Part shown: positions 39,821-39,960 of the stretch, in pieces | Numbering within the stretch: position 1 is the first letter of the stretch | Layout: each line of letters opens with the position of its first letter | Assembly (NCBI RefSeq): GCF_900113315.1 | Contig: NZ_FOZG01000001.1 | Location: 992,001-1,056,000, forward strand | Length of the DNA stretch: 64,000 nucleotides | Reading direction: 5' to 3' | Source: Sphingomonas jatrophae | GTDB taxonomy: Bacteria; Pseudomonadota; Alphaproteobacteria; Sphingomonadales; Sphingomonadaceae | Program-made: the position numbers and the translations under genes | The notes under the pieces: generated by a model | The model's input: the letters and a program-made list of their open reading frames with translations, nothing else | What the model was told of the DNA's origin: nothing | Database searches by the model: none

Positions 39821-39960
39821 GAGTCAGCCGGACTCCGCGGTCAAGCACGGGTCGTCGCAATCGGGTGCGGGATGGCCGGACGCTTGGGCCCAGTGCCGCA
39901 ACAGCTTGAGTCCGGTGACGGCGGCCGACTCAACATGCTGTGGTGTGGCGGGAAAGACTC
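39821..39960 (-). promoter_or_regulatory. Cluster of five GANTC sites upstream of ccrM
   Basis: GANTC pentamers occur at 39821-39825, 39831-39835, 39908-39912, 39927-39931 and 39956-39960. Random expectation at this base composition is about one per 330 bases, so five in 140 bases is a strong excess. The nearest two lie 34 and 44 bases before the ccrM start, where they could fall in the leader. This fits methylation-dependent control of the methylase itself, as known in Caulobacter. The rest of the 273-base intergenic region (39788-40060) holds a stress promoter for the divergent gene. Confidence 0.6.

Follow-up and report, generated by a model that had tools for sequence, protein, structure and literature searches.

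A conserved, helically phased GANTC control region upstream of ccrM in Sphingomonadaceae

In Escherichia coli, the pap region, under control of Lrp and Dam, carries distal and proximal methylation sites ≈ 100 bp apart in helical phase, and in the oriC and dnaA regions DnaA sites occur together with clustered methylation sites. In Caulobacter, the ccrM promoter contains two GANTC sites, and the hemimethylation that follows replication has been linked to increased ccrM expression (review, PMC10073500); a group of start sites with timed activity is distinguished by a GANTC between the −35 and the −10 (PMC4287350). GANTC at ccrM promoters is mentioned in a further source (PMC8865702). GcrA stimulates the formation of open complexes at methylated promoters (PMC7403470), MucR shields GANTC (PMC5172544), and GANTC methylation has been observed in a Sphingomonas (PMC8067484). 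Counts of GANTC ahead of alphaproteobacterial cell-cycle genes led an earlier survey to the conclusion that regulation by methylation was not derivable, and DnaA was considered as a possible regulator of ccrM in the absence of CtrA sites (PMC2877005). The control region described here bears on the timing of ccrM outside Caulobacter, in bacteria without full CtrA sites. The region is real and conserved, and it is more structured than a first-pass annotation of the sequence had reported. Excerpts of the literature surveyed, with older Caulobacter promoter work outside its scope, contain no description of a phased ccrM operator.

We analysed a 64,000-nt stretch of Sphingomonas jatrophae DNA (the window), which contains the following gene.

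38648–39787, minus strand: ccrM, GANTC adenine methyltransferase, 379 aa, with N6_N4_Mtase (Pfam PF01555, E = 4e-64) and RAMA (PF18755, E = 1e-17) domains

Both domains expected of a CcrM orthologue, the methylase fold and a C-terminal RAMA domain, are present, and the protein is the single full-length match in its own genome. The best NCBIfam model is CcrM (E = 1e-181; 603 bits, below the curated cut-off of 830). The start codon is the predicted one, and ≈ 25 residues precede the point at which most matches to relatives start. The dihydropteroate synthase gene folP lies directly 3′ of ccrM on the same strand (37468–39787, minus strand, spans both genes); it does so in nearly all family loci, which suggests a conserved ccrM–folP transcription unit. 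On the other side, rnhB is often found just upstream of ccrM in the same direction. In two loci (L008 and L025) rnhB abuts ccrM, and by our reading of the alignment the first distal site (TGAGTC; see below) seems to include the rnhB stop codon TGA.

Upstream of ccrM, five GANTC sites (39821, 39831, 39908, 39927 and 39956) are real and far above chance. The first two are 34 and 44 bases ahead of the ccrM start codon (39787, minus strand), in agreement with the first-pass annotation, which had also put the density at about ten times expectation. We obtained ≈ 13 times the mononucleotide expectation (0.39) for five sites in 140 bp, and ≈ 44 times the rate of the window itself. The window holds 52 GANTC (0.81 per kb), as compared with 267 expected from dinucleotide shuffles; since the motif is ≈ five-fold depleted elsewhere in the window, five in 140 bp stand out. 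The Poisson probability of at least five sites in the 273-bp intergenic region is 4e-6, and the next-densest run of five in the window, without most of these sites, spans > 1.4 kb. Genome-wide statistics were based on pattern searches. Triples of GANTC with gaps ≤ 32 bp gave eight matches in the 4.06-Mb genome, the ccrM cluster being one of them, and among the ORFs adjoining the others no cell-cycle gene was recognised by reading. One such triple (L305 1501–1539; genome C6:1878897) is ≈ 330 bp before an ORF that, by reading, resembles a ParA/RepA-type protein.

The comparison covered 80 named loci and those of further genomes, giving 183 distinct Sphingomonadaceae ccrM upstream regions. The ccrM upstream region had the most GANTC per 200 bp of its ≈ 12–21 kb locus in 64 of 68 relatives (2 ties), and the sites recur at fixed positions across the family loci. 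Distances between pairs of GANTC peak near 10, 19–20, 29, 39, 49, 68–69, 79–80, 88, 98–99, 108, 118, 137 and 147 bp, that is, in steps of ≈ 10 bp; background pairs from the same loci gave no such peaks. As judged from the sequences, this positional conservation is the strongest evidence against chance. Poor conservation in related species had been named beforehand as the outcome that would speak against a role of the sites in autoregulation. The sites turned out to be strongly conserved across the family, and clustering of GANTC ahead of ccrM is class-wide.

The two sites nearest to ccrM belong to a predicted core promoter with the following elements.

39840–39844, minus strand: TTGAC, −35 element of the inferred ccrM core promoter, at the matching place in 180 of 183 distinct family loci
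39831–39835, minus strand: proximal GANTC p1 (TTGAC+9); GANTC at +8/+9 in 128 family loci
39821–39825, minus strand: proximal GANTC p2 (TTGAC+19); GANTC at +19 in 138 family loci
39816–39821, minus strand: inferred weak −10, CACGGT (family consensus cAcccT, from the family logo)

In 93% of the 180 loci with TTGAC the element is preceded by C (CTTGAC). With a spacer of 17 bp, p2 shares its last base with the start of the inferred −10. The transcription start is predicted ≈ 35 bases after TTGAC, near 39809. The family −10 consensus matches a good −10 at the A and the final T only, and a simple scan of the region found no consensus sigma-70 promoter. The first-pass annotation had regarded p1 and p2 as leader sites. 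They do precede the ccrM start, but they lie in the predicted core promoter and not in the transcribed leader. The N base of p2 varies (C in 105 loci, T in 15, A in 7), as would be the case if it were GANTC itself that is preserved. Between TTGAC and ATG the distance takes a continuous range of values, mostly from 49 to 64 bp; length changes as such are therefore tolerated here.

Outside the family, GANTC was found at +18 to +20 from TTGAC in 52 of 86 loci (block shuffles gave 4.6, and 11 at most) and at +7 to +10 in 59 of 86, with both sites present in 43 of 86. By these counts the TTGAC–GANTC–GANTC layout is class-wide, and its presence outside the family indicates that it is old. The sole other match to this layout in the genome (L298 1501–1539; genome C5:281774–281812) overlaps the upstream part of an ORF resembling a phage-type integrase.

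The remaining three sites had been taken together with p1 and p2 as one larger cluster. All five do form one ccrM control region, but these three make up a separate upstream operator.

39875–39962, minus strand: distal phased operator, ≈ 85 bp (model R1, E = 6.5e-14 in its own genome)
39956–39960, minus strand: distal GANTC s1 (GAGTC), present in 152 of 155 loci with the element
39927–39943, minus strand: dyad left arm, CCACAGCATGTTGAGTC, including distal GANTC s2 (39927–39931; 132 of 155 loci)
39896–39912, minus strand: dyad right arm, GACTCAAGCTGTTGCGG, including distal GANTC s3 (39908–39912; 126 of 155 loci)
39845–39874, minus strand: non-conserved linker, the length of which steps by helical turn between species

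The operator, ≈ 100 bp upstream of the promoter, consists in order of GAGTC, CCACA/CCAC boxes, the dyad, a further GACTC and then TTTCGTTC. The dyad spans 48–51 bp and reads CCACAAnATnTTGAGTC-N14-GACTCAAnATnTTGTGG, with GANTC at fixed 29/20/19-bp steps. The copy in the window is without the fourth distal GANTC, s4 (expected near 39892), and keeps s1–s3. A sequence model of the operator gave matches in 54 of 59 genera, and in each of the 47 genomes checked the best match preceded the matched ccrM start by 104–191 bp; 25 of 180 family loci have no recognisable distal element. In its own genome, model R1 scored significantly at one place only. Searches with the exact dyad, the half-site and the profile agreed that the operator is essentially single copy per genome, at ccrM; the half-site is nearly unique to ccrM, and pattern and profile searches for a wider regulon of the dyad returned essentially ccrM only. 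Many operators were matched again on the opposite strand at model R1 positions 21–71, which is an independent demonstration of the dyad. In a locus from another family of the class (L274), an operator-like dyad, TTGAGTC...GACTCGATCTTGTGG, lies upstream of ccrM and is above the shuffle null. Weak profile matches in other families appear, by our reading, to be rnhB coding sequence. Constraint from the coding end of rnhB was also considered as a source of the conservation; within the family, the operator persists where rnhB is far away.

Since the arms of the dyad could pair and rnhB is a frequent codirectional neighbour immediately upstream, the element might act as a hairpin in RNA or terminate transcription of the gene upstream. 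We regard this as highly improbable. Pairings between the arms are as numerous as independent arms would give, with no excess of compensatory changes; folding energies are unremarkable (z-scores of 0.02 and −0.8), a simple scan found no terminator, and the element persists where rnhB is distant. The lack of covariation between the arms points to a DNA element.

The distal sites differ from p2 in what is conserved. The N base is invariant at s1–s3 and varies at s4 in 3 of 96 cases, and the flanks of the distal GANTC are conserved as well (CCAC, AT, TT). From this we infer that a sequence-reading protein, methylation-sensing or not, binds the distal element. The same features mean that the distal sites may serve a protein that ignores methylation. 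The element would then be the operator of an ordinary regulator whose target happens to contain GAGTC, and only the proximal pair would matter for methylation. Conservation beyond GANTC and the essentially single-copy dyad, unlike the targets of GcrA, would fit such a regulator. Against it speak the additional GANTC that flank the dyad or occur in single lineages (s1, s4 and others), which fall on the same ≈ 10-bp lattice, and the ≈ five-fold depletion of GANTC elsewhere. We consider a methylation-blind operator possible, if doubtful.

To avoid bias, the GANTC columns were masked in the test of spacing; the distal element scored above all shuffles in 155 of 180 loci. The distance from the element to TTGAC was −88.4 (14 loci), −99.0 (119), −109.8 (21) or −120 bp (1), with s.d. 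≈ 0.86 bp within a class and no loci between classes. The CcrM tree, in which many forks are weakly supported, requires a minimum of 17 changes of spacing class; by our count, about nine changes lie beside supported branches. Whole-turn spacing over ≈ 100 bp across a non-conserved linker points to selection for the helical face, which makes protein contact or looping between operator and promoter likely. As in pap, the distal and proximal methylation sites are helically phased.

The cluster lies between the start codons of ccrM and of a divergent ORF (40061–40408), and the first-pass annotation had extended it to the control region of the latter. This part of the claim found no support in the comparison. 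Relatives of the ORF were seen in 3 of 110 loci, as two distinct sequences, whereas the element is near-universal and stays in phase with the ccrM promoter. Because the ORF is not conserved, the cluster belongs to ccrM, and control of the divergent ORF by these sites is scarcely credible.

We also searched the family loci for other inputs. Strong DnaA boxes were found in 81 of 180 loci (0.6 expected). In 46 of 180 a box is at TTGAC+28/+29, where it overlaps the expected ccrM start or closely precedes it. In 62 of 180 loci (0.8 expected) the linker carries the CtrA half-site TTAACCA, on either strand, shortly ahead of the −35; most of these half-sites are at −39/−38, −29 to −27 and −15. The full motif TTAA-N7-TTAA, as looked for in CtrA-activated promoters, is upstream in 3 of 183 family loci. 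The ccrM upstream region of the window contains neither a strong DnaA box nor a CtrA half-site, which leaves the GANTC operator and the core as the common denominator. GcrA is encoded in 59 of 59 genomes tested, and GANTC lies between the −10 and −35 as these elements are inferred from conservation. On one strand, YGAGTC is usually present at s1–s3 and p2, and the final G of YGAKTCG is rare. On the GcrA-oriented strand p2 is mostly followed by C or A, not G, so that the full YGAKTCG motif is absent there.

The DnaA box that many species have on or close to the start site, together with dense GANTC on one helix face over ≈ 150 bp, would be in keeping with sequestration. A SeqA-like complex would polymerise on hemimethylated GANTC behind the fork and keep ccrM off until late in the cycle. 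To our knowledge, no GANTC-reading analogue of SeqA is known. The conserved non-GANTC flanks imply sequence-specific binding instead, and in the same genome we recognised no comparable cluster beside other replication genes. We think sequestration of this kind improbable.

The reading that we prefer is a promoter that senses methylation. Target sites of the enzyme itself, dense ahead of its gene and spaced by whole turns across the family, suggest a purpose-built switch through which the enzyme senses its own marks. The two proximal GANTC would be part of the core promoter, in which CTTGAC is followed by GANTC and by a second GANTC that adjoins a poor −10. A promoter dependent on GcrA, which partners sigma-70 and reads methylated GANTC, would be expected to look like this. 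The protein bound to the upstream dyad operator, with its three GANTC, would contact the promoter complex over ≈ 8–11 helical turns, and because of this contact the distance would change by whole turns only. Every key contact would include a CcrM target, so that the region would report its own methylation state. Replication would leave the region hemimethylated, CcrM would restore methylation, and ccrM output would shift accordingly, in a direction that we infer, like the transcription start, the binding of GcrA and the contact or looping.

In the architecture itself (sites, dyad, phasing, single copy at ccrM and class-wide core), as read from the alignments, we have high confidence. That the region is a methylation-sensing promoter of ccrM is, in our estimate, rather probable. 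The further proposal, that a dedicated protein reads the methylation of the single-copy phased GANTC dyad and contacts the ccrM promoter, is tentative and rather unlikely. If it were true, this protein would be the alphaproteobacterial counterpart of SeqA or Lrp and would couple methylase expression to the replication of the ccrM locus itself. The position of GANTC, rather than the count, carries the signal here, as a class-wide core layout and as a family-wide operator spaced to the helical turn. Point mutations and linker insertions in this region offer direct tests of methylation feedback, and the dyad is a specific DNA bait for finding the bound protein.

Among known systems, the E. coli pap switch shares phased distal and proximal methylation sites ≈ 100 bp apart; the ccrM region differs in methylase and sequence, serves a housekeeping gene and gives no sign of phase variation. 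The SeqA-bound GATC clusters of oriC and the dnaA promoter likewise combine dense, phased methylation sites with DnaA boxes at a cell-cycle gene. The ccrM region, in contrast, has GANTC at a single locus in a dyad with conserved flanks, and no SeqA homologue is implied. The likeness to methylated GcrA–sigma-70 promoters consists of GANTC between −35 and −10, a poor −10 and the presence of a GcrA gene. Here the preferred YGAKTCG is partly matched and GcrA binding is predicted, and excerpts of the literature surveyed describe no upstream phased operator for such promoters. The C. crescentus ccrM promoter belongs to the same gene and has two GANTC at the promoter. The first-pass annotation had drawn this parallel, with methylation lowering expression in Caulobacter; the review (PMC10073500) gives the two sites and links hemimethylation to increased expression. 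By analogy, methylation autoregulation of ccrM is plausible. Compared by description rather than alignment, the C. crescentus promoter is CtrA-activated, whereas 3 of 183 Sphingomonadaceae loci have the full CtrA motif. The Sphingomonadaceae promoters have a phased upstream dyad in addition, and their proximal sites lie within the inferred core promoter.
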